From Agapetus fuscipes (Eukaryota > Arthropoda > Insecta > Trichoptera > Glossosomatidae): 64,000 nt of DNA. Under the pieces are notes generated by a model. That model saw nothing but the letters and a program-made list of their open reading frames with translations, was not told the origin of the DNA and ran no database searches. Shown here in pieces: positions 34,481-60,814 of this stretch; the first letter of the stretch is position 1; each line of letters begins with the position of its first letter. Where the stretch lies: the NCBI GenBank assembly GCA_951799405.1, contig OX637334.1:2542001-2606000 (forward strand), written 5' to 3'. The position numbers were made by a program, and so were the translations under genes.

Positions 34481-34680
34481 AGCTCGCCTCGTTTCTGGTG
34501 TGCGTGTGCGTGGTGACTCTGATGCAGTCGTCGTGTGCGCGCGCAGCCCCCGCCCACCCCAGCAGGCAAAGCCGTCAAAGTCACGGGAACATGAGAGCGG
34601 CGTCGGCGACGGAGAAACCTCCACCCAAGTGGCACAACCCCTGCGGCACCCAGCCCTCCAGCGTAGCACAAATGTCGACG
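34481..34680 (+). CDS. Cytokine-like gene, exon with signal peptide
   Basis: The acceptor is TTCACTTTCAG and the donor ACG|GTAAGT. The exon begins with two bases of a split codon (incoming phase 1) and ends in phase 0 (66 codons). It encodes a hydrophobic core LASFLVCVCVVTLM, a small-residue region ending ARA/AP that fits signal peptidase cleavage, a basic linker (HPSRQSRQSHG) and PPPKWHNPCGTQ. The following exons hold the helical bundle. No in-frame ATG lies between the upstream stop (34438) and this acceptor, so the start must be in an upstream exon (17135-17579 or an unseen short one) or at the internal ATG in LMQ. Its single cysteine after the cleavage site could pair with the one in the exon at 59713. 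Confidence 0.85.
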
Positions 34681-34717
34681 GTAAGTTGGCCATCTTTGTT
34701 ATTCACGCTTTTCGTAT

Positions 34718-35172
34718 GACCAATCCGTAGTCCAGTGGTAACACTTCGGACTCGTAAATGGAAGGTTGTGGGCTTAAATTGCAGTGGAGCATACAAAATA
34801 TTCCATATGTATTTTGAAAAATTTGACCGGTCCGTAGCTCAGTGGTAACACTGCGGACTCTGAATGGGTAGGTTGTGGGTTCGGATCCCGATGGAGCACA
34901 AAAAATATACCATTTATATTCTCAAATTTGCTATTCGCTGGGTTGAAAAATTCATAAACCTTTACCAATGACCGGTCGCCAAAGGTCCATCCAGCCTTAC
35001 AGCAACTTGGTCTTGCTTAAGTATTGGCGCTTTGTAGCGACGACCAAGCTACTACAACAAGTGTTATAGACCCCTAGAGTCTCTAGAATCTAGGGAGTCT
35101 ACCGCACAGGATTTAAAAAAAAATGCTCTTCAATGTGTTAAAAAAATCATAAATCTTTACTTTCCACTGAGG
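34718..35172 (+). repeat. SINE2 variant split by a SINE2-beta element
   Basis: The outer element starts CAATCCGTAGTCCAGTGG only 37 bp after the exon donor, has the AGTGGAGCATACAAAATAT variant and resumes at 35124 with TGCTCTTCAATGTGTT and TACTTTCCACTGAGGGTGT. The same variant stands uninterrupted at 37592. Confidence 0.75.
34827..35123 (+). repeat. SINE2 body with beta tail, nested and complete
   Basis: A full tRNA-like head (ACCGGTCCGTAGCTCAGTGG; GGGTTCGGATCCCG) and SINE2 body run to GACGACCAAGCT, then ACTACAACAAGTG, AGACCCCTAGAGTCTCTAG, TACCGCACAGGATTT and an A run. Being inserted as one unit in another SINE2, it shows that the body-plus-beta chimera is itself a mobile form. Confidence 0.85.
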
Positions 35173-35199
35173 GTGTCAGAAATGATTTCCCGTTTCCAA

Positions 35200-35465
35200 A
35201 TGATGGGTGTTATTAATTGTTGATTGGAGTATGCGAATGATAAGAGACGAGAGTCAATGGAGGAATTGAGTAATCAAAGTGTGTGAAGGATGAAAATAAT
35301 GGATGTTATTCAATGGGGTAATGCAAATGAGAAAGTGATGGATGTGATTTGACAGATTTAAGGTGTGATTGGAGGATGTAAATGATGGAGTGGTTGGAAG
35401 ACGCGTGTAATTAAAGTGATAAAAAGGTATGAATGAAGTGAGAGGAAATGAAGGATGCAAGTGAT
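35200..35465 (+). repeat. Strand-asymmetric GATG-rich degenerate minisatellite
   Basis: The + strand is almost free of C. It is built from loose copies of words such as GGATGTAAATGATGGAG and GTGATGGATGTGATT. No unit is well conserved. Confidence 0.6.
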
Positions 35466-35759
35466 AGTATTGTTACGCAACAAAAGTGCTTACGCGCACC
35501 TATACATGCACGATAGTGTGTATGTAGTCCATTATGGTTGTAGTGCGTAGAATGACGTTCTGGTGTGAGCGAGAGATCGGAGAATGATCTTGAATATGCA
35601 AGAAAGATCTCTTTGGCACCGATATAAAGGTACTGAAATGGTGCGGAAGGCAATCAGGCAATGAGAAGATGATTTGTAGAATTGTAGGACAAACATGAAA
35701 CTTGTTCTAAGCAGTGTGGTACAATTCATTCTCATTGTAATTACGTAATACTTTTCCAG

Positions 35760-35867
35760 GACTTCTTCCCTGAGATCCCCAGCACCAGCGACAGGGAACT
35801 GCTGGAGATGGTCCGACTGTCAGCCATCGGAGCACTGGCGTACGCTGAAGACTACAAGAATGATTAC
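35760..35867 (+). CDS. Cytokine-like gene, helix A exon
   Basis: Acceptor CTTTTCCAG, donor TAC|GTGAGT, phase 0 at both ends, 36 codons. It begins DFFPEIPSTSD and continues as an amphipathic helix (RELLEMVRLSAIGALAYAED) into YKNDY, which joins VKQSF in the next exon. Heptad-like leucine/alanine spacing supports the first helix of a four-helix bundle. The YVKQ sequence across the junction recalls, from memory, the end of helix A in the CNTF group; that should be tested by profile search. Confidence 0.85.
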
Positions 35868-35973
35868 GTGAGTCCAACACAATCATCTCATTTGGTAGAT
35901 TTAAGCCGTCAAAAAGGCTAAAGATGTCACAAAACTCTAATTCTCATCTCTGTATGATTTTTCATCGATGGGT

Positions 35974-36395
35974 TATTCCTTGACATATGAACCCATACCT
36001 ACTGTGAAAATATATCACTTCCCCAATGTCACCCTTGTTTCAGAGAAGGTCGGCAAGAGTTGTAGGGCTTATTGTCATCTGAGATAGGGTTTTTGAATTT
36101 TTTTTAGTGTTAATCTATTTACACAGTGAAAGTCCATTTTTAATTCTTTAAAAATTCAAATGGATAAAAACACAGTTTTAAGTTACTTTTTTTTTTTTTT
36201 TTTGTGCATGAACACTTTCGTCTCATGAGGCATTTTCAGGAGCAGAATGGTTACATTAGGGTTTATTTAGGGTTTCTTATGTTGTAGGTCCACATGCGGC
36301 ATGTGTAAGCTTGAAATTATACGTGTCTTCTTATGAGAATGCATTTAATATGAATCTTAAATGTAAGATATCTTTGCAACTTAGATTATAGATTA
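35974..36395 (+). repeat. RepA copy with an insertion or expanded middle
   Basis: The 5' part runs TTCCTTGACATATGAACCC...GTTGTAGGGCTTATTGTC. About 170 bp of unrelated DNA with a T run (36189-36204) follows. The 3' part is ACATGCGGCATGTGTAAGC...GCAACTTAGATTATAGATT. Confidence 0.7.
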
Positions 36396-37591
36396 TAGAT
36401 GAGCGTTCTGTGATACAGATACGTAAATTAAAACCCTTTGCTCCTCAGCCTCACCAAGATCCTTTTATTTGCGTTATTTCTCTAGGCGCATCACCCCATT
36501 CACATACTTTTTTCAATCAATCACCCATAACTAAATATTATATCATTCCTATTTCAATAACCCATTGAATACGAGTATACATTCATTCTTATTTGCCCAT
36601 TCTTTTGTATGTTACAATAATATCACCAGGCTGTTACTTTCGCGGTATCTCACCTCCCTCAGGAGTCGCCATCCTCTGTCCCGCTCTGTCGCCTCTCGCA
36701 TCCGGTTTTGCACGTCGCTTCCTTTCTACTAATTAATGAATATCGTCACTGGTACTGTTAGGACAAAATACTGTCTGCTCATCGAGTATCCAACCTCACA
36801 CACATACGCAACCAAAGCGTTAACCAAAAAATGTGTGCAGTTAAAAACAGCATCTCTAGTGAGCATTTTAGTTTCAAGATTTTTTTGTAAAACGATATTA
36901 TTGAGTTTAAACGTAGTGTTGTAGACTTGAGGTAGTAATACAACCAATCGAAGATATGAGAAGCGGAAATCAAGCAATGAAAGTAGTAACTTGCATATAT
37001 TTAGTGTACCTATTTGTGTACCTGTATACACCTTCTGTGAACCCGTATCCCTAGGGCAAACTGAACGAATTTTCAATAAGTTACAATTTTTATTTCTTTT
37101 ATTACTAACTATTCTGGTGTATTGATTCACCGATTTGGGAAATCGTGAATAAAACATATTATTGCGTAGAACGTCTCATAGTAAATAAGGCAGTGCTCAT
37201 GAAAAACATCTCAACTAGAGGATTTTCATACTAATTTGTGTTTTCTTTCGTATTAAATAGGAAAAAAATGTACATTTATCTGACAAACTTATGTTGTCAT
37301 TGAATAAGTCACTTATTCAGTTTTACCTTTAAGGTATCGATGTATTCTAAGCTAAAGCATGATTTTCCGTTGAATTTGGAAGTCTGGTAATATTTTCAAA
37401 AATGTGTATGGTTCTTGAAAAACTGTTGTTTATTGAATCACTTATTGTTGTTACGTTTACAACAACTCTTTACATTATCAAAATACAAGAAATCCAAGTT
37501 TAAATTGAATCGTTATTGATTTCAAAAGAAAAACTATTTTCAAAACGTGACACTGATTCTTTGACTTAGACTGCGAACAGCTGATTTAGCA

Positions 37592-37748
37592 GCGGTTCGT
37601 AGTCTAGTGGTGAACACTTCGGACTCGTAAATGGAAGGTTGTGGGTTCGAATCGCAGTGGAGCATACAAAATATACAATTTGTATTTTGAAATATGCTCT
37701 TCGCTGTGTTGAAAAATTAATAAATCTTTACTTTCCACTGAGGGTGTA
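37592..37748 (+). repeat. SINE2 variant, uninterrupted
   Basis: CGGTTCGTAGTCTAGTGG, GGGTTCGAATCGCAGTGG, AGCATACAAAATATACAATT and CTTCGCTGTGTTG. It ends TACTTTCCACTGAGGGTGT, without the second ACCGGTC box or either standard tail. Confidence 0.75.
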
Positions 37749-37767
37749 ATTAATTAATTGCTTGTAT

Positions 37768-37945
37768 TATTTGACTTAAAGGTTGGTATGAGGCTGACCA
37801 CCTATACTGTAAAAATGCTTCACTTTACCAATGCCACCCCTGTTTCAGGGAAGGTCGGTAAGAATCCCAGGGCTTACGTTCATTTGATCATGAGTTTTTT
37901 TATGTTGTAAGTCCACATGCTGCATGTGTGAGCGTGAACTTATAA
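37768..37945 (+). repeat. RepA copy, 3' truncated
   Basis: From TTTGACTTAAAGGTTGGTATG to CACATGCTGCATGTGTGAGCG, after which similarity ends. Confidence 0.75.
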
Positions 37946-38019
37946 TATATAAGTAATATATCAATATGCGTAAAAAATAGTGACATAAAAATTCAGTAAT
38001 CGTTACTCTTTAAATCTTA

Positions 38020-38830
38020 CATTTTAGTCAGCTGAACGAACTGTTTAGTATCACAAATGAATTATTCAACCAGTGTGTGAGTCTGGTGTTGACTATTTCG
38101 GTACACGGCAGTGATGGTCACAGCTGTGTGGGCACCAGCAGTGTATTTCAGCAGGGAATCCCGGACCAGCCTCATTCAGGTGATTGTTTGTCCGATCGCG
38201 CGTGCGAATAATTCGATCAGTTATTTATATATTTTTTTTGCATCTCATTGAGTGTGTGCGGTTTTGTTGGTAACGTGGAAAACCCGCGTTTTTTTAATCT
38301 GTATGCGATTACAGTTTGTGCGAATCCCTGCGATTCGATGCGATGGAAAGTCGACATGTTCATGTTGAATTTGAATAAACTGATCAATTTGTTGAATCAA
38401 CAATAACAAACTTCAGTTACCGAATATAACAACACCTTCTCTCAGGGTCAGTCTCCCCTCCACTGACCCACGCCCTGTATATCTATCACATCCGGGGATG
38501 TGTCACAGGACTCGCATGCAAAAGTTATGTGAGATACGAGTGGCAGAAGGCCCTCCCGAGAAGCTACACTTTCCCAAGTGTTTGCACAAAGCAAGGAGGC
38601 TCAAAAATCACTGAAAGGTTATAGCCGTAAGGGTTTGGGGCTCGAGGATTTTAAATTTACAAACAAAAATGCAAAGTGATTCTGAGCGTCTTAACATATG
38701 ACTTAAGGCCTAAATTCGAGATGTTACTACTGAGACTGTTCGGGAGGTGCTCTCCTGACTAAGTGGCCAACCACCATAGAGGTGGGAAAACCGAATATAA
38801 CAGTCTATCAATTAAATATTTTTATGCTTC
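38020..38830. other. Compositionally complex unassigned segment
   Basis: Two less AT-rich patches (38090-38220 and 38440-38790) contain GCACCAGCAGTG, CCCTCCCGAGAAGC and GGTGCTCTCCTGAC. The second resembles worn coding or element DNA, but I could not place it in a family. Confidence 0.3.
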
Positions 38831-39059
38831 AATTCTAAGATTGGTTCACTGAAATATTCATCTATCGTCGTCTTCATTCTTCCCTCTCCAAAACTTTTGA
38901 GTTCCTCGTAAGACGAACAACAATTTTTGTAAATATATCCTGTTGGAACTCAAAACGTTGTTATAATGTTAAAATAGCGACAACGTTTACTTATCCTTCA
39001 CGAGAGATGATAATCTTCCCGCACTGCTTACTTTGCAAGCCGGCAAGCGAAAATATTTT

Positions 39060-39325
39060 TTCTTGACCATTCGGCCGCATCAGAGGCGAAGATCCAAGCC
39101 CTCCATCTACTTCCCTGCTCCTGGCGTGGCTTCGTGGAGGTCTTTTAGGCTAGGAGGGTGTATTTTGATGGAGCACTCCTCCACTATGTGCCGGACAGTC
39201 TGGTTCTCCGCCCCACAGCCATATCCTGGAGATGAAGCTAATCCCCATCTTTGGAGAAAGGAGTTCCACTTTATGTGAAGTATTTGGCCTTGACCTGGCT
39301 CCTTTATCTGTGAAAATAAACACGT
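39060..39325 (-). pseudogene. LINE polymerase C-terminus with Cys/His motif
   Basis: The minus strand reads HIKWNSFLQRWGLASS, then CGAENQTVRHIVEECS and IHPPSLKDLHEAT. The C-G-x3-Q-T-x2-H-x4-C pattern is a conserved C-terminal motif of several non-LTR ORF2 proteins. The frame covering the motif is intact. Confidence 0.8.
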
Positions 39326-39392
39326 TACACTCACAAAATGAAACCCTACGGGGACAATACAGCAAGAAGTTGCAGAATATGTTCAGCTTAAT
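39298..39392 (+). repeat. SINE1 3' fragment
   Basis: CTTTATCTGTGAAAATAAAC, CCCTACGGGGACAATAC and CAGCAAGAAGTTGCAGAATA match the last third of SINE1 with divergence. Confidence 0.55.
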
Positions 39393-39417
39393 CGGATATG
39401 CATTATTCTTGATGACT

Positions 39418-39680
39418 GTTCCTTGACTTATAGGTTGGTGTGCGGCTGACCACCCATGCTGTAAAAATGGTTCACTTTACCAATGTCACCCCTGTTTCAG
39501 GGAAGGACGGCTAGAGTTGCAGGGTGTATGTCCATTTGAGATTTGGTTTTTATGTTGTAGGTTCACATGAGGCATGTGCAAGCGCGAATTTGTACGTGTC
39601 TGGTTGTGAAAATGCATATAATGTGAATCTCCAATGTAACATATCTTTGCAACTTAGATTAGATTTTAGATTAGATTAAA
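39418..39680 (+). repeat. RepA copy, full length
   Basis: From TTCCTTGACTTATAGGTTGG to GCAACTTAGATTAGATTTTAG. All blocks are present. Confidence 0.85.
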
Positions 39681-40155
39681 CTTGATAAATTCAAGTAACG
39701 AAAAATACGCATTGGAAAATGAGGCAAAAAAATCGGATAGCTTTTCTCACACCTGCATATTAAAAAACAATCCGCCAGCAAATCAAACTCGGTTGTTTGA
39801 ATGCTTTTCATTGTCAAGGTCTTTATACAATCAATTTATTATTCATATAATATGATATAATAAATGCTCTGAGCTATTGACACCTGCAAGTACTGCACAC
39901 TAGTACAATAATTATTATTTTAAAATAAACATCTTAGTTTTAACAATGAGCTGAGAGTGTATTTTTAGACTGAGCCGTGATTCAAAAGCACTTGAGCTAT
40001 TTATTTTTGATTCCTATTTCAAGATCACTTCAAAATTTTCCTGAATTGTAGATGCAAACAGAGTCAATTAAAAATGAAGCATCACCGAGGTATTCGGAAG
40101 TCTATATTCATTAATATTCAGTGAGCAGGATTAGCTGACTTAATTTAATGTATCT

Positions 40156-40415
40156 GTCCGGTCGACAGCTCAGTTGGTAAATCACTTACGGTCAAAGCCA
40201 GAGGGCTGGGATTCGATGCCCACTACGGAGAATGATTTTATTTTACACCCAAAATCATCTTATGGGTTAACTTCTCTTAGATTGTACAGAAACTTCACTT
40301 CAAGGGAAGTGGTGTACATAATGCTGGACCTCTAAGCTGTGTAAAAAAAAATGTGACTCTTTTGAGGAGTATGTGATAAGAAGTTTCACAACATGTGGAG
40401 CTGAGTTGCGTTTTT
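40156..40415 (+). repeat. Divergent SINE1-related element
   Basis: The head GTCCGGTCGACAGCTCAGTTGG and B-box-like GGGATTCGATGCCC are followed by a body unlike SINE1 (TTTTACACCCAAAATCATC). It keeps the TTCACTTCAAGGGAAGTGG hairpin and the 3' end TGTGGAGCTGAGTTGCG. It may be a separate subfamily sharing both ends. Confidence 0.7.
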
Positions 40416-40607
40416 CGGCAGTGTTGCAATTCTTTGTAAAAAATACTTTCCCTATTCTACAAGCAATTTACGACAATGAAAATATTTGTGTTTTTTTGTT
40501 GTTTTTAAATGTCAATCAATAGATCATTGATAAACGCGTTACCTTGTTAAACGAAGAATCTGGGTTTGACGATATTTTAGGTTATATTTCATTACGTGTT
40601 GGTATTT

Positions 40608-40858
40608 TGATAGGTTGGTATGCGGCTGACCACCCATACTGTAAAAAATGGTTCACTTTGCCAATGTCACCCCTGCTTCAGGGAAGGTCGGCAAGAGTTG
40701 CAGGGCTTATGTTCATTTGAGATTGGGGTTTTTTATATTGTAGGTCCACATGCAGCATGTGTAAGCGCGAAATTATGCATGTCTGCTTGTGGGAATGCAT
40801 TTAATATGAATCTCAAATGATACATATCTTTGCAGCTTAGATTTAGATTTAGATTTTT
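40608..40858 (+). repeat. RepA copy, near full length
   Basis: From TAGGTTGGTATGCGGCTGACC to GCAGCTTAGATTTAGATTTAG, very close to the copies at 5719 and 43717, implying recent activity. Confidence 0.85.
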
Positions 40859-40868
40859 AGACGTGTTC

Positions 40869-41203
40869 GTCCGGTCGATAGCTCAGGTGGTAGAGTGCTT
40901 GCATTCCATGCCGAAAGCTCGGGTTCGAGTCCCACCGAGGGTGTCAGAAATGATTTCCCGTTTCGGTGTTTATTTCAAACCCCAAAATAAAATACCGGCA
41001 AGGCTTACTCAGCCTTCACAAGAAATGAGTACCAGCACTCTCGGGAGCTGGGAAACCTCCACTTCAACTGAAGTGGTTGGCGTAAGGCCGGCCCCCTTAC
41101 CTGTAAAAACAAATAGGTTCAACTCGCCACATGCGACCCCTTCGGGGATAACGCGGCAAGAAGTTACACTAAATGTGTAGCTGAGTTGCGTTTTTTTTTG
41201 CGT
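40869..41203 (+). repeat. SINE1, reference full-length copy
   Basis: The head is GTCCGGTCGATAGCTCAGG, GTGCTTGCATTCC and GGGTTCGAGTCCC. The body is TCAGAAATGATTTCCCGTTTC, AAAATACCGGCAAGGC, CTCTCGGGAGCTGGGAAACC and CCTTCGGGGATAACGCGGC. The 3' end is AAATGTGTAGCTGAGTTGCG followed by T's. Confidence 0.9.
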
Positions 41204-41347
41204 GTCATTAATAAAAATCTCATTATTTTGAACAGAAAATCAAGTTGTCAACAAGAATTTAAAAAATATATATCTTCAAGCCCAAAATGCTCTTCTCTTG
41301 ATGGTTAGATTGGTTAATAATTTGGTATCACATTTTTTATGGACATT

Positions 41348-41559
41348 TCACGGAATGAGCTCTTGATCAAGCTCTTGTTCCCTTGGTGAGCTGGAATACA
41401 GAAGCCATGTCACGCGGTGGACTGGCAGAGGTTCAGTTAGCATTGTAGGAACGATCACTTCCTCTCCGCCTAATAACGAAGGCTGGGCACGCGCTGGCCG
41501 GTCGTCTGCGTCTGGCAAAAGTTCCTCAAACAACTGAACTAGAAATGCCAACGTGAAAT
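41348..41559 (-). CDS. Orphan terminal exon candidate on the minus strand
   Basis: On the minus strand a good acceptor (TTTCCTGTTTACAG) opens a 70-codon frame ending in TGA. The protein reads FTLAFLVQLFEELLPDADD, then GGEEVIVPTMLTEPLPVHRV and ends EQELDQELIP. Base composition is clearly less AT-rich than the flanks. I do not recognise it with confidence. The layout (short helix, basic stretch, LPxH) could fit the region before the zinc-binding tail of piggyBac-type transposases, but that is a guess. It lies inside the large intron of the cytokine-like gene, antisense to it, between inverted SINE1 copies. No partner exon was identified. Confidence 0.4.
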
Positions 41560-41608
41560 CTGTAAACAGGAAATTTTTTAATGTTTTGTAGCGGGTAAAA
41601 AAATGATA

Positions 41609-41927
41609 CTGAGCTACAAATATAGTGTAACTTCTTGCCGCGCTATCTCCGAAGGGTTTCGCTTGTGGCGGGAGGAACCTATTTATTTTTACAGGTAAGG
41701 GGGCCGGTCTAACGTCAAACACTTCAGTTGAAGATGACCTATTCCAGCTCGCGAGGAGGCTGGTACTCATTCCTTGTGGACGCTGAGTTAACCTCGCCGG
41801 TGTTTTATTTTTTTGGTGTTTGAAATGAACACCGAAACGGGAAATCATTTCTGACACCCTCGGTGGGATTCGAACACCCGAGCTCACGGCATGGTATGTA
41901 AGCACTCTACCAACTGAGCTATCGACT
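41609..41927 (-). repeat. SINE1 copy, full length, inverted relative to 40869
   Basis: The minus strand runs from GATAGCTCAGTTGGTAGAGTG through GGGTGTTCGAATCCCACCG and AAAACACCGGCGAGG to the 3' end GTTACACTATATTTGTAGC. With 40869-41203 it makes an inverted pair of about 300-bp arms spaced by 405 bp. Confidence 0.85.
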
Positions 41928-42286
41928 TGACTTTTAAATGTAAAAATTTAAAAAAGGTGAAAAGTGCATGTATGAAGGTGTGTGATGAAGGTTGATTGAT
42001 AAAAGTTTGAGTATTTTTGTAACTTCCGATACATCGCCAGTCTGTAAGGCATTAACTACGCCAAGTAGTATAAAACGTTACATTAAAATTCAAGCACAGC
42101 GCTATCACAATAATGTATGGAACCTAAAACTCTCACTAGGAGGGAGACTTTATTTTCTATACGTATTTATCGCGACCTTAAGTTTGAGTTAAAACTTTGC
42201 GTTTTTATACACTTTATTGAGTATTATTATTCGATTGACAATATTACTTACATATAATTTTATGAACTCGCTACTGGGAGGCGATA

Positions 42287-42518
42287 CCTTAGTACGAGTT
42301 GCAAAACTTGAGTAAAGTTAAGTTTACGGAAAGTATTAAAGAGTGATTTTCCCCAGAATCACCCGTTTTTGTTTCTTACACTTTATGGTCTTAGCAAAAG
42401 AGTTACAGTGATGAAGAAAATCAAGTTCAAACAAACAAAAACGGCAGATTTTGGGAAAAACCACTCTTTAATACTTTCCGTAAACTTTACTTTACTCAAG
42501 TTTTGCAACTCGTATTCA
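42287..42518. mobile_element. TA-flanked foldback MITE, complete
   Basis: The left arm CCTTAGTACGAGTTGCAAAA...GTTTACGGAAAGTATTAAAGAG is the complement of the right arm ending CTCGTATTCAGGG over about 90 bp. TA lies at each outer edge, as for Tc1/mariner-type insertions. There is no coding capacity. Confidence 0.8.
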
Positions 42519-42711
42519 GGGTAGGTACTTCTGATGACTTTAACGTATTTAACATACGTTACGTCCTCGTTTACTTTTTTCGTCAAATAAATTAAAAGAA
42601 AATTAACGTGTTGTTTATGGGACATTAAATTACAAAATCGCCCACCAAATTTAAATTACGATCCAACTCTGTTACTACATAAATGGTGATTTTTTTTTGT
42701 CTTTATGTATG

Positions 42712-42785
42712 AAGTTAAGAAGAGGCAAATCTGCAGAAGTTCAAGCCACTCCTAGCGGGATGGCGACAGAGTGCAGTTAAATATA
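42712..42785 (+). pseudogene. LINE 3' end fragment
   Basis: AGAGGCAAATCTGCAGAAG, GCCACTCCTAGCGGGATGG and ACAGAGTGCAG match the LINE end at 51845 in opposite orientation. Confidence 0.5.
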
Positions 42786-43202
42786 AGAAGTTTCTTCTCG
42801 ATCATTTCTGTATTGAAGACAAGACATTCAATTGAATCTTCCCGAAGTGACCACTCAGCTATATTGTTCTGGTTCTTCCTCATTGCATTAGGATATCTGT
42901 GGACTAGAAATTATTTTAACGGTCCTTAGTAAGATAGAGAACTAAGAACTACACAATAATTGTATTTCCGTGTGGTCAGCCTCATACGTCAAATAATGAT
43001 CTAAAAATATATTATTGGTCTCCTCAATCAACCGCTGCCAGCGCTGTCTTTCCATGTTTTTTTTTTTATCAAAACCTAATTAATTAGGAGTATCATTTTG
43101 ACAGCTAATAGGTGTCAAATTGCTTAAAAAAATTAATGAATGAATCGTTGTCAACAATGAACGGACACAATAGTTAATGAGCGCTATTGTTTTCATCGCC
43201 TA

Positions 43203-43400
43203 TGAATGAAGCGGCTTCTGGCGACGGCATTAGAATACTGGAGATCCGCCGCGCCAGATAGTGGTGGCCATCCTCTCGCCAGGCCTGCGAGGAAGTGCAC
43301 ACGTGTCGGCCCGCGGCCATTGTCCGCCCTTATCCGAGTCATGCCATCAATAAAACCATCCGCCCAAGACGTGGGCTGGTTTCTCCTCATACCTTCTTGT
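43203..43400. other. GC-rich segment, unassigned
   Basis: A 200-bp block much richer in G+C than its surroundings (CCGCCGCGCCAGATAG, GTGTCGGCCCGCGGCC), open on both strands (65 and 77 codons). I see no family motif. Possibly regulatory or an element remnant. Confidence 0.3.
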
Positions 43401-43499
43401 AGACTTCACTTGACAGAAATAGGTTCTTGTTACTTGTGAGAGGTGGCAAAACCGCAACTAAACTAAAGGAAGGTAAAATGTATAAATATTACATTTGTT

Positions 43500-43645
43500 T
43501 GCGAATGAATGGGATATCCAGAGTCGTGTAATAAAAGGAGAGCTTGTATGAAAAAGGTTATGGCTCTGGATGAAATGAAAGAAGTATGCAAGGATCGAAA
43601 GAAATGGCGGTTCATCTGTAATGCCGACAAATATGTTTTGTAGTT
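43500..43645 (+). pseudogene. LINE polymerase C-terminal relic
   Basis: GAATGGGATATCCAGAGTCG then ATGAAAGAAGTATGCAAGG and AAGAAATGGCGGTTCATCTG correspond to the 'KEVCKDRKEWRxLC' end of the LINE better seen at 51845. Frameshifted. Confidence 0.55.
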
Positions 43646-43716
43646 TTTTTAATTTTTTACTGTTTAATTGTTTAGAGTTTATTTGTTTTATATATTTGAA
43701 TGTATTAATTGCTTAT

Positions 43717-43970: not shown

Positions 43971-43974
43971 TATT

Positions 43975-44800: not shown

Positions 44801-44809
44801 TAATACAAC

Positions 44810-45063: not shown

Positions 45064-45069
45064 GATATT

Positions 45070-50430: not shown

Positions 50431-50439
50431 GTACCATAT

Positions 50440-50625: not shown

Positions 50626-50640
50626 TTCTTTTATATATTA

Positions 50641-51483: not shown

Positions 51484-51844
51484 TTCATTTAATTACGTTG
51501 ATATACCTAAAACTATTATCTAAGTTAATTTTTTTTAAATAACATTTAAGATTCATGTTTGATGCACACCCACATACTGATAAATATTCCCAAACCTTCG
51601 TCTTATCTGCCAGTGTGTAGATATGTGTCAAAAGGACTTAATAGATTTTCATTCAAATCTATTTATTCATTAACAGTTAGAAGAAGCTCTTATTGTGAAG
51701 TTAGAAGCAACGGTACGACAAATATAACGGCAAACAATTGTTATTCAAAGCTCGAATAAACATGGAATCTGGAAGTCTTTCTTCTTTTCTGAAATTTTCC
51801 TTAGAACAGGGTGACATTGATAAAAATTAAACAATTTTTTAAAC

Positions 51845-52170
51845 TCTGTAACTCTGTCACCATTCCGCTAGGGGTGGCCAGAGCCTCTGCAGAGTTGCCT
51901 CCATTCCTTCCTATCCTTACATACCTCTTTCAATTCATTCATATCCTCCATCTTTTTCATGCACTTTCTTCTTTTACGCTCGCTTGTTACTTACTTTCTT
52001 TCACAATCTCCTCAATCTGATCACTCCATACTTTTCTCGGACGTCCCTTACCTATTTTTCCATTCACCCTACCTCTGTATATATAGGTACTTTGTCAGTC
52101 TATCATCATTCATTCTTTCCACATGCCCAAACCATCTCATCAAATTATTTTGTATGTACCTCAATTTTTT
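51845..52170 (-). pseudogene. LINE polymerase C-terminal relic, best copy of this family
   Basis: The minus strand reads RWFGHVERMNDDRLTK, then GRPRKVWSDQIEEIVKES, KKMEDMNELKEVCKDRKEWR and QLCRGSGHP. The GHVERM, GRPRK-W and KDRKEWR motifs are standard C-terminal blocks of RTE/CR1-like reverse transcriptases. One frameshift. Confidence 0.8.
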
Positions 52171-52609
52171 TCAAATTTCATAAACAATTATAAATTTACA
52201 AACCAATAAATTATCAAAGTAATTTAATATTCGAGATTAAGAAAATAAAGGCTTTTTGACAGAACAATTCACTTTTGATACAACAAATGTACAATCCAGT
52301 TTCAGCAACAAGTCAAATGTTTATTTTTTCCTGAGATGGTTTTCTCTACGTCCACACCCTTTGAAAAGGCAATATTGCACACTGGGGGAGTAGGTAGTAC
52401 TAGGGCTGAATATCGATTTTTGTTTTTGGCGAACTTGAAGAGAGGTCAAGGGTCCCAATGAAGCTCGATAAAGGTCATAGAATAATATGATGTTTATGTT
52501 TCCATTCACAATAAAAAAAAAAGAGTTTTTAATCTAATAAAATAATTTTATCTAATCCTTAATTAATTTAGTCTACAAAAAATATATATATCCAATCGTC
52601 TGTAAATAT

Positions 52610-52797
52610 CTGTAAAAAATGGTTCACTTTGCCAATGTCACTCCTGTGTCAGGGAAGATCGGCAAAAGTTGTAGGGCTTATGTTCATTTGAGGTTTGGGT
52701 TTTATTTGTAAGTACACATTCAGCATTTGTAAGCGCGAACTACATGAACAGGAACTTAAATGTTAATATATCTCTGCAACTTAGATTATAGATTATT
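52610..52797 (+). repeat. RepA, 5' truncated
   Basis: From CTGTAAAAAATGGTTCACTT to GCAACTTAGATTATAGATTA. Same ACACATTCAGCATTTGTAAGC subfamily as 15390. Confidence 0.8.
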
Positions 52798-52996
52798 ATT
52801 GTCTCCTTGAAGGCATGCGTTTAATAATATTATTATTATTTTATTTTTTATTTTTATTGTTATTTAAACAACACCTTTTTAAACTTTAAACCACTGTTTA
52901 TTTTCACAACTGTTTATTAATTTTTAATGTTTATATGTATTTGCAACTTAGATTATAGATTACTCTAATTGCGTAAGTTTATCTAATTGCTTAATG

Positions 52997-53206
52997 TAGA
53001 AATTGGTTCATATAACCAAATTGCCCCCTGTTTCAGGGATGTAATACTTCAAGAGTTGCAGGGTGTATGTTTTCTTTTGATTTGTTTTTTTTCTGTAAAT
53101 ACACATGCGGCATGTGTAAGCGCGAATTCATACTTATTCTGCTTGTAGGTATGCATTTAATATTACGAATTCTAAATGATAATATAACTTTGCAACTTAG
53201 ATTACA
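52997..53206 (+). repeat. RepA, 5' truncated
   Basis: From GTAGAAATTGGTTCATATAACC to TTTGCAACTTAGATTA, with the central palindrome ACATGCGGCATGTGTAAGCGC. Confidence 0.75.
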
Positions 53207-53635
53207 TATGATATATATTATTCATTACTCGTTACATCATACTGTAATTTACATGTGTGCAATACCTGTCATACAAAATTGTATCATCGATGAGTCAAAA
53301 TGCCATCGATATTTAGTATTGTACTCAAGTAAAAAACATAAATGAATTTAAACTAAAACAGCGCCTCTAGTGAGCGATTGAATTTCCATAATTATTTTGT
53401 AAAACGCTATGTCTCAGTTTCAACGTAAAGTTCTGTACACACAGCGAGTGTTTGCTATCACGTGATGTCGTGTGGCAGGTGAACTTTCTATTGGTTAGGT
53501 CAGTTGTGTTTAGTGCATGCACGCTCTGTATGGCGGTCATGACCTCAAGCCAGCGACCTTGCTCGTTACAAAACAATAATAATATTATTATTATGTGGGT
53601 GAAGTTTTTATATCGGAAATGATAGTTTACCAATA

Positions 53636-53830
53636 GGCTGGCGTGAGGTTGATCACCAATTCTTTAAAAAAAAATACGTTCACTTTTCATTATATCATTG
53701 TATTTTTTATGTATATACATTTGATTTTCGGGCTTATTTTTAAGTACACGTACAGCATGTGTAATCGCAAACTTGCAGAAGTTTGCTTGTGGAGGTGTAA
53801 GACGCTTAATCTCAAATTGTAGTATGTTGA
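53636..53830 (+). repeat. RepA, degraded
   Basis: GGCTGGCGTGAGGTTGATCACC, CACGTACAGCATGTGTAATCG and GTTTGCTTGTGG show the order of RepA blocks. The ends are lost. Confidence 0.55.
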
Positions 53831-54294
53831 ATATATTAACAAGTAGGGTTGACATTGGTAAAAGTGAACTGATGGGATATTTGCATGAGTGTTAGAGTGA
53901 ATCACTATTTTTCCATGTGTTGATCAAAACGCTAATCAATTCACACAGCTTTTAATTTCTGTCAACAATGTTTAATTTTTCTAGTTATGAATGTTCATTT
54001 CGCTGAAATTTTTAAGTTGAAAATTAAATCGTTACAATGATGATTCACATGTATTCTATGTTTAATTTATAATTTACAAAAAATAAAGCTAAACATCAAA
54101 TGAACCAAAACCTTGCCATTCTGAGATTTTCCCTGAAACAGGGGTGAAATTCGCAAAAGTAACCAATTTTCACAGTTTAAATTGTCAGTTTTATACCACC
54201 TAAAACTTAAATACAAAACGTTTTTTTGTTAGGAATACCAGAAGTGCTTTGACAATCTTATTTTCTTGATTTAGATTACAAAACTACTTTATAT

Positions 54295-54480
54295 CATCTC
54301 ATCGATCCTGAGATGAGGACGTCCAGCCATCTTTCCACCTTTTAGGAGGTCTTCCAGCTGGGCGTTGACCTATAATTGGCATCTCATTAGCAACGATGTG
54401 TGCGAGTCTTTCATGACTCATTCTGGAAATATGATCTCTCCAAAATCACTTCTTGGATCTGCTCCATCAAACTATGTCCT
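54295..54480 (-). pseudogene. LINE polymerase C-terminal fragment
   Basis: The minus strand reads DHISRMSHERLAHIVANEM, then RPAGRPPKRWKDG. This is the GRPxxRWxDG region of a LINE polymerase, from a different lineage than the fragment at 51845. Confidence 0.7.
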
Positions 54481-54510
54481 CTATTTTACAGTATCAAGAT
54501 AGCTTTCGTC

Positions 54511-54990
54511 CCCTTAGTGCTTGTTTTTCTATGTCCATCAGAGCTTATAATGAGTAATGTGACATATCGCTCCCCCAGTTCTTGTTTACCGTATCTACGC
54601 CAATCTTGTCAAATATGACTTTTTCATGCAGTTGTCTTATGAATAAAATTCTACACAATCTGAGCTAAGAAAATCCGTAAAACTTGATAAAGTGACAGTT
54701 CTTTTAAATATTTTTAAAATAAATTTCTTGTTTTCATAAGACACATTGGTCCAGTACACATGCAAACATTGCTCATGTAAAATTTTCTCAATGACGTATA
54801 CGATAAACAAGAACTATGGCAGCGATATGTGTACTGGACCAATGTGTCTCATGAAAACTGGAAATTGATTTTAAAAATATCTAAAACAACTAACATTATC
54901 GTGTTTTACGTTTTTTTCTTAGCTCAGATTGTGTAGAATGTGATTCTTAAGACAATTTCATTGAAAGGTCATCATTGAATCAAATAGTAA
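54511..54990 (-). mobile_element. MITE-1 interrupted by another MITE-1
   Basis: The outer element begins CCCCTTAGTGCTTGTTTTTC, stops at about 54560 and resumes at about 54832 with ATGTGTACTGGACCAATGTG. It continues through TTAGCTCAGATTGTGTAGAATG to about 54990, where the right end is worn. Confidence 0.75.
54562..54832 (+). mobile_element. MITE-1, GTTCTTGTTTACC subtype, nested
   Basis: Ends ACATATCGCTCCCCCAGTTC and GAACTATGGCAGCGATATGT are inverted repeats of about 32 bp. The core is that of the copy at 4411. It is inserted in a copy of its own family. Confidence 0.8.
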
Positions 54991-55045
54991 AAGTAAAACG
55001 CTTTGATAATATTCAGTTAATTTTATAATGTGTAAACACATACTT

Positions 55046-55102
55046 CGTGGCGCGGACAGTACTTGGATGGGTGACCGCTCAGGTACACCGCGTGTCGTTG
55101 GC
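55046..55102 (+). pseudogene. 5S rRNA 3'-half fragment
   Basis: GGCGCGGACAGTACTTGGATG, then GGTGACCGCTC and CACCGCGTGTCGTTGGC match the second half of 5S rRNA (box C region and 3' end). The first half is absent, so this is not a functional gene. It ends 7 bases before a SINE2 head. Confidence 0.85.
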
Positions 55103-55108
55103 ATCTTG

Positions 55109-55419
55109 GACCGGTCCGTAGTCCGTAGTGGCAACACTTCGGACTCGTAAATGGAAGGTTGTGGATTCGGATCCCGGCGGAGCACAAAAAATATACCATT
55201 TATATTTCGAAAGTGCTCTTCGCTGAGTTGAAAAATTCATAAACCTTTACCAAAGACCGGTCACTGAAAGGTCCATCCAACCTTACAACAACTGGGTCTT
55301 GCTTGAGAATTGGCGCTTTCTACAGCGACGACCAAGCTCGCAGAGGGCTCTTGAGGTGTGATACACACAAAAACAGCGCTCACCAAATAAATCATCCTAA
55401 TATTATTATTATTATTATT
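55109..55419 (+). repeat. SINE2, full-length reference copy
   Basis: Head ACCGGTCCGTAGTCCGTAGTGG (with a small internal duplication) and GGATTCGGATCCCGG; body GGAGCACAAAAAATATACC, AAAGACCGGTCACTGAAAGG and TTGAGAATTGGCGCTTTC. The standard tail is CAGAGGGCTCTTGAGGTGTG, CAGCGCTCACCAAATAAATC and (ATT)n. Confidence 0.9.
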
Positions 55420-55856
55420 CGTGTAGTCCATCTGCTTTATTTGTACAGTACATGTGATTGTTCCTTGCATTTATCAGCCTACCAATTTACTGAATTAACC
55501 GATGAGTAATAACAAGAGCCTTTTCCTCGTATATTATACTCGATGGCTTCATTTTCAATAGACTGACTAACGCGCGAAGCTTTCTCTTGGAAATGAAGGC
55601 AGCATTTTAAGGTTAGGCAATTTCTGGAAAACGCTTTTCTTTGAATTTCGCGAGCAAATCTAAAGAATGAGACAACCCTTAAGGAAAAATAGACTAATTA
55701 ATTTATAGTCCTATGAAATTTCTTAATCATCTTATATCTTAGTTGCAAAATTTTAAGTAGGTATATAACTTTTTAATGACAATTTAGAATTAACTCCTAA
55801 ATGAGTTTGTATAACCAGTTAACTTTTCACTAGTAAAGCGATCAGCCCTACACAAT

Positions 55857-55879
55857 CTATCTATAATCTAAGTCGCAAA

Positions 55880-55923
<44 letters not shown>

Positions 55924-56131
55924 CATGCATTCCGATAAGCATACACGTATAATTTCGCGCTTACACATGCCGCATGTGGACCTACGATACAAAAACCCAA
56001 ATCTCAAATAAACATAAAACCTGCTACTCTTGCCGACATTCCCTGAAACAAGGGTGGCATTGTCCAAGTGAATTCATTTTTTACAGTACCTATAGGGTGT
56101 TAACCTCATACCAACCTATAAGTCAAAGAAT
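55857..56131 (-). repeat. RepA copy with expanded (TA)n
   Basis: The inverse RepA from ATAATCTAAGTCGCAAAG to ACCAACCTATAAGTCAAAGAA contains 20 TA units at 55881-55920, where other copies have only ATATAT. Confidence 0.85.
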
Positions 56132-56195
56132 CATTTATTTGAGCATTTCTTAATACATTGATATTAGGGTATGGTCTGCTTACATTTGCAAATTT

Positions 56196-56360
56196 TCGAC
56201 GCTGATGATCCTGGCCGTAGAGATGAGTAAAACGTTGTACAATCTTTATTAATTTTTAACATTAATAAATTCATTCTGTGAAGGAATATTCTTGCTTAGA
56301 TATTTCATTTTTCGACGCTGATGATCCTGGCCGTAGAGATGAGTGAAACGTTTTACAATC
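56196..56360 (+). repeat. Direct repeat of about 50 bp before a splice acceptor
   Basis: TTTTCGACGCTGATGATCC and GGCCGTAGAGATGAGT(A/G)AAAC occur at about 56193 and again at about 56309, 116 bp apart. The second copy ends about 30 bp before the acceptor at 56390. Both carry CTGATGA followed 20 bases later by (G/T)AAACGTT. Confidence 0.8.
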
Positions 56361-56390
56361 GTTGCTAATTTGCACATTTTCTTGTTCCAG

Positions 56391-56519
56391 GTTAAGCAAT
56401 CCTTCAGCGTGGATTTCGCAGAGCACCACGGAGACTGGTCCTACATGACCTCTAGCTGGCTGCCGACTATTCCAAAAGGCCTTGGGAAGAGGCTGGCTCA
56501 AGAGCATCTCGATACAGAG
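56391..56519 (+). CDS. Cytokine-like gene, end of helix A and A-B loop exon
   Basis: Acceptor TTTTCTTGTTCCAG, donor GAG|GTAAGG, phase 0 at both ends, 43 codons. It starts VKQSFSVDFAEHH, then GDWSYMTSSWLPTIPKGLG, a loop with two tryptophans and two prolines, and ends KRLAQEHLDTE, which leads into helix B. In class-I cytokines a long crossing loop follows helix A; the length here (about 30 residues) suits that. Confidence 0.88.
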
Positions 56520-56566
56520 GTAAGGAACTGTGTTTCTTTGATTTACCATCATTTCAACCCTCTCAT

Positions 56567-57247
56567 TTCGCTGCCTTAGTTCTTGTTTGCCGTATAGACC
56601 ATTCAGCTAATTTTACATGAGCAATGTTTGCATGTGTACTGGACCAATGTGTCTGATGAAAACAGGAAATTGATTTAAAAAATATTTGACACAACTCTCA
56701 CATTATCGAGTTTTAATTGTTTCTTAGCTCAGATTGTGTAGAATTTGATTCTTAAGACAACTGCATTAAGGCCCGGTATTTTGAAGTATCGTAAAGTTAA
56801 CTAAAATGCAATTTTAGTTAAATCATCAAAATATTTCACTCACCAAATTTCGGCAGTAAATATTTAGTAACTTTAACTTTCGATTTTCAAGATGGCGGCG
56901 CTTCACTGACCGCAGCTGTTATTTTTTAATGTAAGGATACATCAAAATTGTTACAAACTGAACATTTTTTGTCTCGTTTTCTAGCTTAATGAAGGTAAGG
57001 GATATGATTTTTATGAATAGTTGTTTGTTTTAAAGCTTTTGAATGGCATTTCAATTATTTCCAAGATTTGGGGGCGTGGCTTCATACTTCGGCAATGCTC
57101 GGTTTTAGTTAACTCGAGATTGAGTATTTTGAATAAAAGTTCAAGTAATAGTTAACTAAAATATTACTACAGTTCAATATACCGGGCCTAAAAAGTCACG
57201 TTCGAAAGAATTGGTCTACACGGCAAACAAGAACTGGGGGAGCGAGT
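56567..57247 (-). mobile_element. MITE-1 interrupted by a Harbinger-type MITE
   Basis: Left end GCTGCCTTAGTTCTTGTTTG, right end ACGGCAAACAAGAACTGGGGGAGCG. The core is in the first part (56620-56766); after the insert it resumes AAAAGTCACGTTCGAAAG. Confidence 0.8.
56770..57188. mobile_element. Harbinger-type MITE with TAA duplication
   Basis: The ends GGCCCGGTATTTTGAA and TTCAATATACCGGGCC are 16-bp inverted repeats with one mismatch, flanked by TAA on each side (56767-56769 and 57189-57191). A 3-bp TAA/TTA duplication and a GGCC start fit PIF/Harbinger. Removing it restores MITE-1 with a single TAA. The inside contains AAGATGGCGGCGC. Confidence 0.85.
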
Positions 57248-57425
57248 TGTCTACCACTGCATATCTACCTTGAAGATACGCAAACGAAACTAAACTACAC
57301 ATATAGTGTAGCTTAGTATAATGTTGGCGGCTAGGGTTTTTTAAATAAGAATTTGTTTTTTTTTTTAGTTTTTGATGTCCATACATAATATAATTTGTTG
57401 ATTTTAAAAATGTAATTTGCTGTTA

Positions 57426-57652
57426 TGTTCCTTGACTTATAGGCTGGTATGCGGCTGACCACCCATGCTGTAGAAAATGGTTCACTTTGCCAATGTCACC
57501 CCTGTTTCAGGGAAGTTCAGCAGGAGTTTCAGGGCTTATGTTCATTTGAGATTCGGGTTTTTATACTGTAGGTTCACATGCGGCATATGTGAGCGCGAAA
57601 TTATGCGTGTCTGCTTGTGATATTTTTGCAACTAAGATTTAGATTTAGATGC
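57426..57652 (+). repeat. RepA copy with a small 3' deletion
   Basis: From TTCCTTGACTTATAGGCTGG to GCAACTAAGATTTAGATTTAG. The GGGAATGCATTTAATATG block is deleted. Confidence 0.8.
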
Positions 57653-57659
57653 CTTTTAT

Positions 57660-58365
57660 ACTTGAAACAATGTCATCCTACAACCAAATTACATTCAAAA
57701 TGATTCCTAGTTTAATTTTTAACGTGCGGTGGAATTCGAGTGGTCCTTTGCCTTTGGGCATTTTTTGACCGAAATCCACCACGCGACCATGAAATGGGAC
57801 TCGAACCATGGATCTCTTGTTGCCTCAGGTCAAGCGGATAGCGTGTTGGTCCATCAAAAACCATGTCAAACATACATCATACCATATTTTAGTTATGTAA
57901 AACCAAAAGCGTCAATCTAAGATATTTTTCTGTAAATTAAATATATAAATGGAAACACACTGAATCATTTTCTAATAATTTCCATGTATTTTTTTTTAAA
58001 TATTCGAAAAAAATCCTCTATTGCCGTATTTGTTTCCATACGCTTCATTTCTGACTCTATATATTATATTATGATGCTGTGTCAATTTTCATTCCAACGA
58101 AAATTAGACAGACCTGAGGGCAAAAAATATGAATTTATAATGTTTTATATTTTATTTTAAATATTTAATAGGTTAATGCAGTATTGGATATGCATTTTTG
58201 CTTCGCCAAAATTATCCTCAATTTTAGTTTCTAGGCTTGCGTGCAAATTTCCGACATGTCCGTTTAAAAATCTTAGATAATTCACACGATGATATTAATA
58301 TGAGAAGATAGCGTTGATTTCGTCTTGATTTCAGGCATTTGAACTGCTTGTATTCGACTCGTCTA
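57660..58365. other. Intronic spacer
   Basis: The stretch 57730-57870 (CGACCATGAAATGGGACTCG; GGTCAAGCGGATAGCGTG) looks like a worn tRNA-like or SINE segment. I could not place it in SINE1-3. The rest is AT-rich. Confidence 0.35.
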
Positions 58366-58371
58366 TAATAA

Positions 58372-58556
58372 TGTAATCTATAATCTTACTCAAGAAGACA
58401 CGCGTAAGTTCGTGCTTACAAACACTGCGTGTGTAATACTACATAAAACCCAAATCTTAGATGAACATACACCCTGCAACTTTTTCGGACGTTTCCGGAC
58501 ACAAGTGTGACATTGGCAAAATCAACTGTTTTTTACAGTAATTACTCAAGGAATAA
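58372..58556 (-). repeat. RepA, degraded
   Basis: CACGCGTAAGTTCGTGCTTAC, CACCCTGCAACTTTTTCGG and TGTGACATTGGCAAAATC are the inverse blocks of RepA. Confidence 0.65.
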
Positions 58557-58559
58557 AGA

Positions 58560-59285
58560 AATTCGTACGGAACCAAAAACAGGAATCTAGAATTCTAATT
58601 GGAAAACGAGAAAATGTCATTTTCTTTGTTGTCATTTATTTATTTCAATTTATGTTTATAACTGTATTTCACGTTATTAGATTATAATTCAGAAAATTTA
58701 TATCAGATCGAAAAGCTTCTTGATATTTTTATATTAGAAATTCGTTTTCAAGAAAATCAACGACTCTTTGTTATTCTAACATCGTTGATATAAAAAAAAA
58801 CCTGTTTTTTTTTCTCGACCATTAATTTGGTTAAAAGTTGTCTGAGACCATGCCGCGATAAAATCCTGACATCCCATCTAGTTATTTACACATTATATAC
58901 ATCGTATGTATATTCGGTGCATCAAGATGTCATTTGTGAAATGAGCTACTAATTGCATAGATCACGCGATCCACACAACATATTTGTATGAATTATTAAC
59001 TTAATGGGGAGGAAATGTTGTACGTTAAATAAACCACACTCTATAATTTTATGATTTCTATGTACGCAATCTCTCCTAATTAGATTTTACTCGATCTATT
59101 TTTGTAGAGATTATTTCTATTAGCGTTTCCGTTCTTGATAATCATGAGTATATTTTATGTGATCGCATAAGTGGCATATGAAGTTAACATGAATTTCTCA
59201 GTTAAATGCACATTTTTCCCTATTTTCTATTAGAGAATACAACAAAAATATATAAAAATCCTGTAGTTTAGAAGTTTTTCATGAG
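58560..59285. other. AT-rich intronic spacer
   Basis: Nothing recognised. Confidence 0.45.
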
Positions 59286-59288
59286 TTC

Positions 59289-59546
59289 TTCCCCTTAGTG
59301 TTTGTTTATCTTACGTTCATCACAGGTAATTTCACATGAGCAATGTTTGTATGTATGCTGAACTAATGTGTCTTATGAATGCTCGACATTGATTTCAAAA
59401 ATATTAAAAAAAAACTCTCAAATTATCATGTGTTACGTTTTCTTCTTAGCTCAGATTGTATAGAGTGTGATTCTTAAGACAATTTCATTGAAAGGCTATC
59501 TTTGACTGAAATGGTAGATAAGCAAAACAAGCACTGAGGGGAGGAT
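59289..59546 (-). mobile_element. MITE-1 copy, full length
   Basis: Ends CCCCTTAGTGTTTGTTTATC and AAACAAGCACTGAGGGGA. Core AACTAATGTGTCTTATGAATG and TTAGCTCAGATTGTATAG. It lies 170 bp upstream of an exon acceptor. Confidence 0.8.
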
Positions 59547-59712
59547 ACACTGATATCTCACCAATACCAACACCTATGCTAGCCTGCAAGAATTGTTATA
59601 AACCTCCAAATTATATGAAATCTATAGTCTCCCGCAAAGGATTTCCAAAACAAAATAGCACCCTCAAAATGATATTTTTATTTACGTGTTTTTCTTTTTG
59701 TTTTGCCCGCAG

Positions 59713-59874
59713 ACGGACTTGAACTCTGCCCTCGCGCGCCTATACCGGGACCTGCAGTACTATGCCGTGGGATTGGAGCAGGTCACTATCGACCAGGAAA
59801 GGGAAAAATTGGGATTCGCAGAGATGTTCCGGACGGTGGAGAGCAGACTGCGCGGCCTGCTCTGCGAAATACAG
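59713..59874 (+). CDS. Cytokine-like gene, helix B and helix C exon
   Basis: Acceptor TTTTGCCCGCAG, donor CAG|GTAATT, phase 0 at both ends, 54 codons. It begins TDLNSALARLYRDLQYYAVG, helix B running to QVTIDQE, then a short turn (EKLG) and helix C (FAEMFRTVESRLRGLLCEIQ). The single cysteine in LLCEIQ is one of two expected after signal cleavage. Close packing of B and C with a short turn is the pattern of helical cytokines. GC content is much higher than in the introns, and the codons keep to one strong frame. Confidence 0.9.
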
Positions 59875-59936
59875 GTAATTCATTCTTTCCCCGTCAGTCT
59901 TTATCAGGCCTCCCTCTTATTCAGCCACTTCCTCAC

Positions 59937-60070
59937 TGCAGTCCCCTGAACATCATCGAGTCATTTCCAGTCCTCTCCATTCCTCGATTGGAAATCTTGG
60001 AGGATCTTACTTCGGTCATCTTGATGACATGACCTGCCCAACGCCATTTCAGTCTGGTTATGCGGCCTAT
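59937..60070 (-). pseudogene. LINE polymerase C-terminal relic
   Basis: The minus strand reads RLKWRWAGHVIKMTEVRSSK, fitting the W-x-GHV-x-(R/K)M block of non-LTR polymerases. It lies 60 bp downstream of an exon donor. Confidence 0.6.
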
Positions 60071-60109
60071 TATGATCAATACAAGATTATGATTCTAGCG
60101 TATATCTAA

Positions 60110-60342
60110 TCTAAGTTGCAAAGATATGTAACATTGTGGATTCACATTACATGCATTCTCACAAGCAGGCACGTATGAGTCCGCGCTTACACATGCCGCA
60201 TAACCTTCAACATAAGCACCCAAATGTCATATTAACATACGCCCTGCAACCCTTCTCCGAAACAGTAGTGATTTTGGCAAAGTGAACCATTTTTGTGCAG
60301 AATGGGTCTTCAGTCTCATACCAATCAATAAGTCAAGGAATA
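60110..60342 (-). repeat. RepA copy
   Basis: Inverse tail AATCTAAGTTGCAAAGATATG at the left, inverse head ACCAATCAATAAGTCAAGGAA at the right. Confidence 0.8.
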
Positions 60343-60574
60343 TCAAATCAAAATACTATTTAAAACTGACTAAAAAGTAGACGAGACACGACCGGCTTGT
60401 GATGGTGGATGTCTACTAATATAATTTGTTATACATGCCGAAGACCTTGTTAAATAGATTGTGTCGTTTGTCCGCAGATTTTTTTTTGCACGAAACGCAC
60501 GCTTATTTTAAGGAAACTTCCTGTTCCTCTTGTTGAACCTTATCCTAATCTTGTTTCTCTATTTTTTTCCTCAG

Positions 60575-60814
60575 ACTGTCATGCTGGACCGCAACGCCAC
60601 GTTCTTCGACAACGTGCAACCGGAAGTGATGCCCGACGATGACCGGAAAGCGGCCGACAGAACCCAGCTGAACCTGCGTCAGTGGGTCATCTTCAGGGAC
60701 TACATGAACGCTCTGGAGTTCACCATCGAGCTGATGGACCACTACATGAAGAATCTGTCTTCGGAGGCGTTGAACATGCAATCTGACAACACTATTCCAT
60801 CATCAGAGTCATAA
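60575..60814 (+). CDS. Cytokine-like gene, C-D loop and helix D, with stop
   Basis: The acceptor is ATTTTTTTCCTCAG. There are 79 codons plus TAA. It reads TVMLDRNATFFDNVQPEVMP, an acidic/basic loop (DDDRKAADR), then a long helix D (LRQWVIFRDYMNALEFTIEL, MDHYMKNLS) and a short polar tail. N-glycosylation sequons are NAT and NLS. In receptor-binding cytokines of the IL-6 group a long C-D loop precedes helix D, as here. Counting from the ATG at 17135 the whole product would be 427 residues. Counting from the predicted signal cleavage site the mature part is about 257. Confidence 0.9.
   Translation, partial: TVMLDRNATFFDNVQPEVMPDDDRKAADRTQLNLRQWVIFRDYMNALEFTIELMDHYMKNLSSEALNMQSDNTIPSSES

Follow-up and report, generated by a model that had tools for sequence, protein, structure and literature searches.

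A caddisfly gene for a predicted secreted four-helix cytokine from an unnamed arthropod family, a candidate Domeless ligand

A stretch of 64,000 nucleotides from the caddisfly Agapetus fuscipes (contig OX637334.1, positions 2,542,001 to 2,606,000; assembly GCA_951799405.1), hereafter the window, contains a gene for a predicted secreted class-I cytokine on the + strand. The gene model has six exons spanning 17135–60814, encodes 427 residues and has intron phases 1, 0, 0, 0, 0 (Table 1). It is intact and looks complete within the window. The initial annotation of this DNA had proposed a five-exon gene beginning with exon 2. All five of those exons are coding, with AG/GT borders, a single frame and a TAA end, but coding starts 17.3 kb upstream of them, in an exon that had been overlooked. 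The phases given at that time were also borne out by the joined sequence, with phase 1 entering exon 2 and phase 0 at all later junctions.

Composition and comparison with relatives both bear on whether the exons are real. The GC content at third codon positions of the five downstream exons is 0.63–0.77, and that of their 200-base flanks as a whole is 0.35–0.42. When the joined five-exon coding sequence was shuffled at first order with its own composition kept, the frame was open in 1 of 20,000 shuffles. Both strands of the window were also scanned mechanically for exons; four of these five took ranks 1–4, and exon 3 was missing from the candidate list. In tblastn searches of the window with 88 related proteins (see below), run at E up to 10 so that weak matches count, exons 2 to 6 were matched by 80, 68, 78, 88 and 87 of the 88 proteins, with best E values of 1e-3, 8e-4, 8e-9, 8e-13 and 3e-12, respectively. 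The exons were first proposed from the raw sequence only, and exon 3 is short as well as absent from the scan list, as chance open frames might be. However, every one of the five was matched by relatives, and the joined product aligned to proteins of other species at 26–42% identity; the probability of a chance origin appears negligible. A GC-rich candidate exon at 33031–33209 was rejected: its length, 179 bases, is not divisible by three, so that including it would disrupt the frame from exon 1 to exon 2.

Table 1. Exons of the six-exon gene model and neighbouring candidate features in the window
Feature	Position	Strand	Description
Exon 1	17135–17579	+	ATG, 148 codons and one base; leader with GMLCREQRT; donor CAA/GTAAGT, phase 1
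Exon 2	34481–34680	+	Hydrophobic secretion segment (residues ~150–167), mature start, WHNPCG motif
Exon 3	35760–35867	+	Bulk of helix A (model residues 46–81)
Exon 4	56391–56519	+	Last part of helix A, then the long A-B loop (model residues 82–124); conserved WLP and PK
Exon 5	59713–59874	+	Helices B and C joined by a short turn (model residues 125–178); conserved AVGLEQ and LCE
Exon 6	60575–60814	+	Last part of helix C, C-D loop, helix D and stop (model residues 179–257); RDYMNALE region
Candidate alternative first exon	33287–33305	+	ATG, 19 coding bases, phase 1; weak
Possible polyadenylation signal	61341–61346	+	AATAAA; motif only

The window gene is a copy of an unannotated and unnamed arthropod family that is conserved across insects of eight orders and also in one ostracod and one mite. 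A whole-length protein search gave nothing at E <= 1. A search restricted to words from residues 128–256 found 8 proteins at E 1e-15 or better with 40–46% identity, a profile search found 86 proteins, and the relatives combined number 88. Judged by their species names, the named insect relatives belong to Hymenoptera, Coleoptera, Hemiptera, Orthoptera, Blattodea, Phasmatodea, Ephemeroptera and Trichoptera; outside the insects, members come from an ostracod, Cyprideis, and a mite, Brevipalpus (E 1e-20). No dipteran or lepidopteran source is found among the named rows of the 88 relatives, many of which are without a name. The named records are nearly all called ‘uncharacterized’, ‘hypothetical’ or ‘unnamed’. 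Members from laboratory insects include Tribolium LOC103312158, Nasonia LOC100678690 and Apis cerana LOC107992404. A clear member from Fopius arisanus (P0059) is entered in UniRef as HutI_0, which appears to be a misnomer. The initial annotation had remarked that few invertebrate ligands of this class are known, and the protein proves not to be an isolated case. A description of the family was not found in the open-licence literature of PMC, a scope that has few subscription papers inside it and preprints outside it.

Conserved stretches of the family include W-x-N-P-C-G, WLP, AVGLEQ, LCE and the RDYMNALE region, and the first of these is conserved in alignments A1 and A3. Alignment A2 comprises 6 of the 8 proteins of the restricted search plus the window protein, and A3 comprises 66 of the 88 relatives plus the window protein (67 rows). 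In a tree of 42 rows (41 of the 88 relatives and the window protein), the window protein was nearest a caddisfly on a long branch, with support of 80/88, which is below the tool’s mark. No relatives were found in viral or prokaryote contigs. Comparison with a viral library gave no match below E 0.001, and its top three rows were human herpesvirus 8 (HHV-8) ORF K2, the viral IL-6, and two viral IL-10 homologues.

The segment that had been read as resembling a signal peptide does exist, with a mean hydropathy of 1.95 over 17 residues followed by ARA/AP, but it is internal in the six-exon transcript model. The mature part contains the two N-glycosylation sequons (NAT and NLS) and two cysteines that had been described. 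Of these cysteines (mature positions 33 and 175), one is kept in 65 of the 65 rows that carry a letter there and the other in 67 of 67. The mature window protein is acidic with an isoelectric point (pI) of 4.6. The hydrophobic segment would direct the chain to the endoplasmic reticulum, where signal peptidase may cleave near ARA/AP. A disulphide between Cys33 and Cys175 would tie the W-x-N-P-C-G arm to helix C, and an acidic glycoprotein would be released from the cell.

A cytokine-type bundle of four helices is confidently predicted for this protein; the structural matches give it an up-up-down-down topology with two long crossover loops. This is the fold of a class-I long-chain cytokine, and it has the up-up-down-down arrangement on which the initial annotation had staked its reading. 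A fold from the single sequence was too weak to be used, with a predicted local distance difference test (pLDDT) value of 49.4. CNTF, tied with IL-11, was the best VIA row in the structural comparison. The growth hormone/prolactin group had structural scores below those of CNTF and IL-11 and gave no Pfam match. The IL-6/gp130 cytokines (CNTF, IL-11, CLCF1, IL-6, LIF and G-CSF) have the same predicted fold as the window protein, and yet the family is without significant sequence similarity to them. In hhalign, A3 scored 16.6 against IL-11, CLCF1, CNTF and CT-1, no better than shuffles: at least 8 of 200 column shuffles were above 16.6 and the reversed set reached 16.3. Therefore, the likeness to vertebrate cytokines is one of fold and not of sequence, and the suggested resemblance to CNTF and CLCF1 stands at the fold level but not in the comparison of profiles. 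The window protein matched Pfam IL11 with E values of 0.03–0.008 (14.4–16.2 bits against a cut-off of 25.8). These matches were treated as uninformative about kinship, because common descent with sequences of the IL-6 family was not significant in the profile comparison. Against the PDB, phmmer gave a stray match to RBBP4 alone, the A2 profile gave nothing and the A3 profile gave a stray match to an interleukin-3 receptor subunit (E 1.3).

The hhalign score and the sub-threshold IL11 scores weigh against a cytokine, as does Foldseek, in which no E value was below 0.001 and the best was 2.1e-3. Four-helix bundles are common, and these proteins also give stray sub-threshold Pfam matches to other helical families, so the bundle might belong to a lipid carrier or an intracellular helical protein that is cytokine-like by arrangement only. 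We consider such an unrelated function very improbable. It is highly probable that the protein is a secreted class-I bundle.

The exon structure is a second likeness to vertebrate cytokines. In class-I cytokine genes of vertebrates, an intron of phase 1 lies near the signal segment and later introns are of phase 0, and the human IL-6 gene has phases 1, 0, 0, 0 with introns at nearly the same places as those described here. In the window gene, a phase-1 intron, within or ahead of the signal segment, is followed by phase-0 introns, three of which lie 5 residues short of the end of helix A, 2 ahead of helix B and 5 short of the end of helix C. The IL-6/gp130 group has introns in similar positions towards the end of helix A, just ahead of helix B and towards the end of helix C, whereas the window gene has one more intron, before helix A, and the long leader exon. 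One account of the IL-6 gene gives five exons and four introns, without their positions (PMC4073161); exon sizes and phases were not found in the literature.

Unpaired of Drosophila (Upd1–3) is also an arthropod ligand, and the Pfam family PF15972 gives sub-threshold matches in some relatives. Six of the 67 A3 rows matched PF15972 at E <= 0.1. Among the 55 of 88 relatives that were scanned singly against Pfam, five matched, all below the cut-off: P0001 (4.7e-5), P0041 (1.8e-3), P0045 (0.014), P0078 from Rhodnius (0.024) and P0047 (0.098). The best score was 23.5 bits against a gathering score of 27, and the family threshold was not reached. Five of the six matching A3 rows were traced for register; all five matches share an end register, three of them begin immediately ahead of W-x-N-P-C, and the longest extend from there to just past helix C. 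Several results weigh against a relation to Unpaired. No match at this E value was found in 61 of the 67 A3 rows, two short matches are without a common start register, and neither the window protein nor the family consensus matched PF15972. Charge is a further point: Unpaired is basic and binds the matrix, whereas all 80 relatives measured (those of the 88 with the motif W-x-[NKD]-P-C) have a pI below 7. The earlier remark that the protein does not look like basic Unpaired is right as to its acidity, but several relatives do match PF15972 below threshold. The family also differs from Unpaired in its own motifs, W-x-N-P-C-G, AVGLEQ and RDYMNALE, and in the RDQRT leader of 31 of 88 relatives. 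Other stray families occur in the A3 Pfam scan (1–4 rows each, with weak E values) and members of a family are not independent, so the PF15972 matches are a lead and not evidence of membership.

The shared end register, the common start of three matches and the occurrence of a match in Rhodnius would fit a direct orthologue of dipteran Unpaired that evolved so fast in flies that searches failed. There is no named dipteran row among the 88 relatives, and a Tribolium paper in which the unpaired ligand was not identified suggested high sequence variation (PMC2375007). Conversely, the scores below the gathering score, the silence of the window protein and the consensus, and the unlike charge speak against orthology. 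We give this sub-case of a Domeless ligand even chances.

Reports of a missing ligand date back to 2006 and cover bees, beetles, locusts, bugs and mites. In the honey bee, unpaired was reported as the only completely absent member of the Janus kinase/signal transducer and activator of transcription (JAK/STAT) pathway, and ‘a currently unrecognized ligand’ was expected (PMC1847501). In Locusta the ligand was not identified, and Apis, Anopheles, Tribolium and Bombyx were listed likewise (PMC4624584). The same was reported for Upd-3 in hemipterans (PMC5778769), for the ligand in soft scales (PMC11084805) and for that of Varroa and of other mites and ticks (PMC12027997). The genome paper on the stink bug Halyomorpha reports a putative unpaired (PMC7071726), which looks like a mix-up of symbols because ‘upd, unpaired’ is equated there with uroporphyrinogen decarboxylase. 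A 2026 survey gives the arthropod ligands as Upd1–3 and a C-type lectin and states that IL-6 was not found in invertebrates (PMC13203501). A secreted class-I cytokine family is present where the ligand was declared missing and is therefore a strong candidate for it, one that can be named and tested. Like Unpaired in flies, the cytokine would most likely bridge Domeless-type (gp130-like) receptors and so switch on JAK (Hopscotch) and STAT. Taken as a whole, a family of secreted long-chain class-I four-helix cytokines that would act through Domeless and JAK/STAT is a likely reading of our data, and for Domeless as the receptor, considered separately, the balance is somewhat favourable.

CRLF3 is another class-I cytokine receptor of insects, and the family might signal through it or through yet another receptor. 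The fold does not tell which receptor is bound, and the lack of named rows from Diptera and Lepidoptera, with many rows unnamed, would also suit such a ligand. Ligands of CRLF3 were stated in 2021 as not yet identified. In shrimp, a C-type lectin was reported to bind and activate Domeless (PMC5645147); at least one other ligand of Domeless is thus reported, which speaks for another receptor here. However, in a transcriptome study, CRLF3 was reported in only 5 of 128 insect species (PMC6797617), as compared with eight insect orders for the family, and the sub-threshold PF15972 matches point to the Domeless pathway. We regard a receptor other than Domeless as unlikely.

The family bears on the origin of helical cytokines. 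A tentative, rather doubtful view is that it is a general arthropod class-I cytokine which predates the split of chelicerates and mandibulates, that Unpaired of flies is a derived branch, and that an ancestral gene is shared with the IL-6 type. Common descent from a single cytokine gene in the protostome-deuterostome ancestor would then explain why its intron places and phases match those of the IL-6 type.

A tblastn match of 16 residues at 17198–17245, weak at E 0.28, brought the leader encoded by exon 1 to light. The leader lies in an open frame that begins with the ATG and ends at the phase-1 donor at 17579/17580. RDQRT is present in the N-terminus of 31 of the 88 relatives, and in 31 of the 32 in which over 70 residues precede W-x-[NKD]-P-C. 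The pattern G-[ML]-L-x-R-[DE]-Q-R-T is found in 8 of the 88 relatives (25 in a looser form) and once in the six frames of the window, as compared with none of 60 order-2 shuffles. A long leader of the GMLDRDQRT type stands ahead of the secretion segment in window exon 1 and in relatives such as P0005, P0006, P0007, P0065 and P0070, and the hydrophobic segment is likewise internal in the long models of the relatives. Such a leader is odd for a secreted cytokine; it may point to a form kept at the membrane or to regulation of the start. Other relatives, Rhodnius P0078 among them, start directly at a signal-peptide-like segment. The candidate alternative first exon, joined to exon 2, would yield an ordinary N-terminal signal peptide, MSRLYRE-LASFLVCVCVV. 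It is one of three short first-exon candidates with a donor score above 5 in 34 kb. That scan was limited to exons of fewer than 150 bases, and therefore it missed the 445-base exon 1.

Several repeats lie in and around the gene. Upstream of exon 2, a near-perfect inverted repeat with 123-nt arms at 33511–33633 and 33688–33810 (95% complementary, 54 nt apart) is, judged by its structure, a foldback element. A short interspersed repeat at 34717–34920, also present at 8090, 37613 and 55133, is tRNA-like (GTAGCTCAGTGGTAACACT and a GGTTCGAATCC-like box), with two tandem copies in the intron after exon 2. It is probably a tRNA-derived short interspersed element, and ARAGORN found no tRNA gene in the window. 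Dispersed repeats D1 (11 copies) and D2 (12 copies) overlap each other and occur on both strands throughout the window (5758–63869). Downstream of the gene, two ATTAAA motifs at 61016 and 61084 lie closer to the stop than the AATAAA motif.

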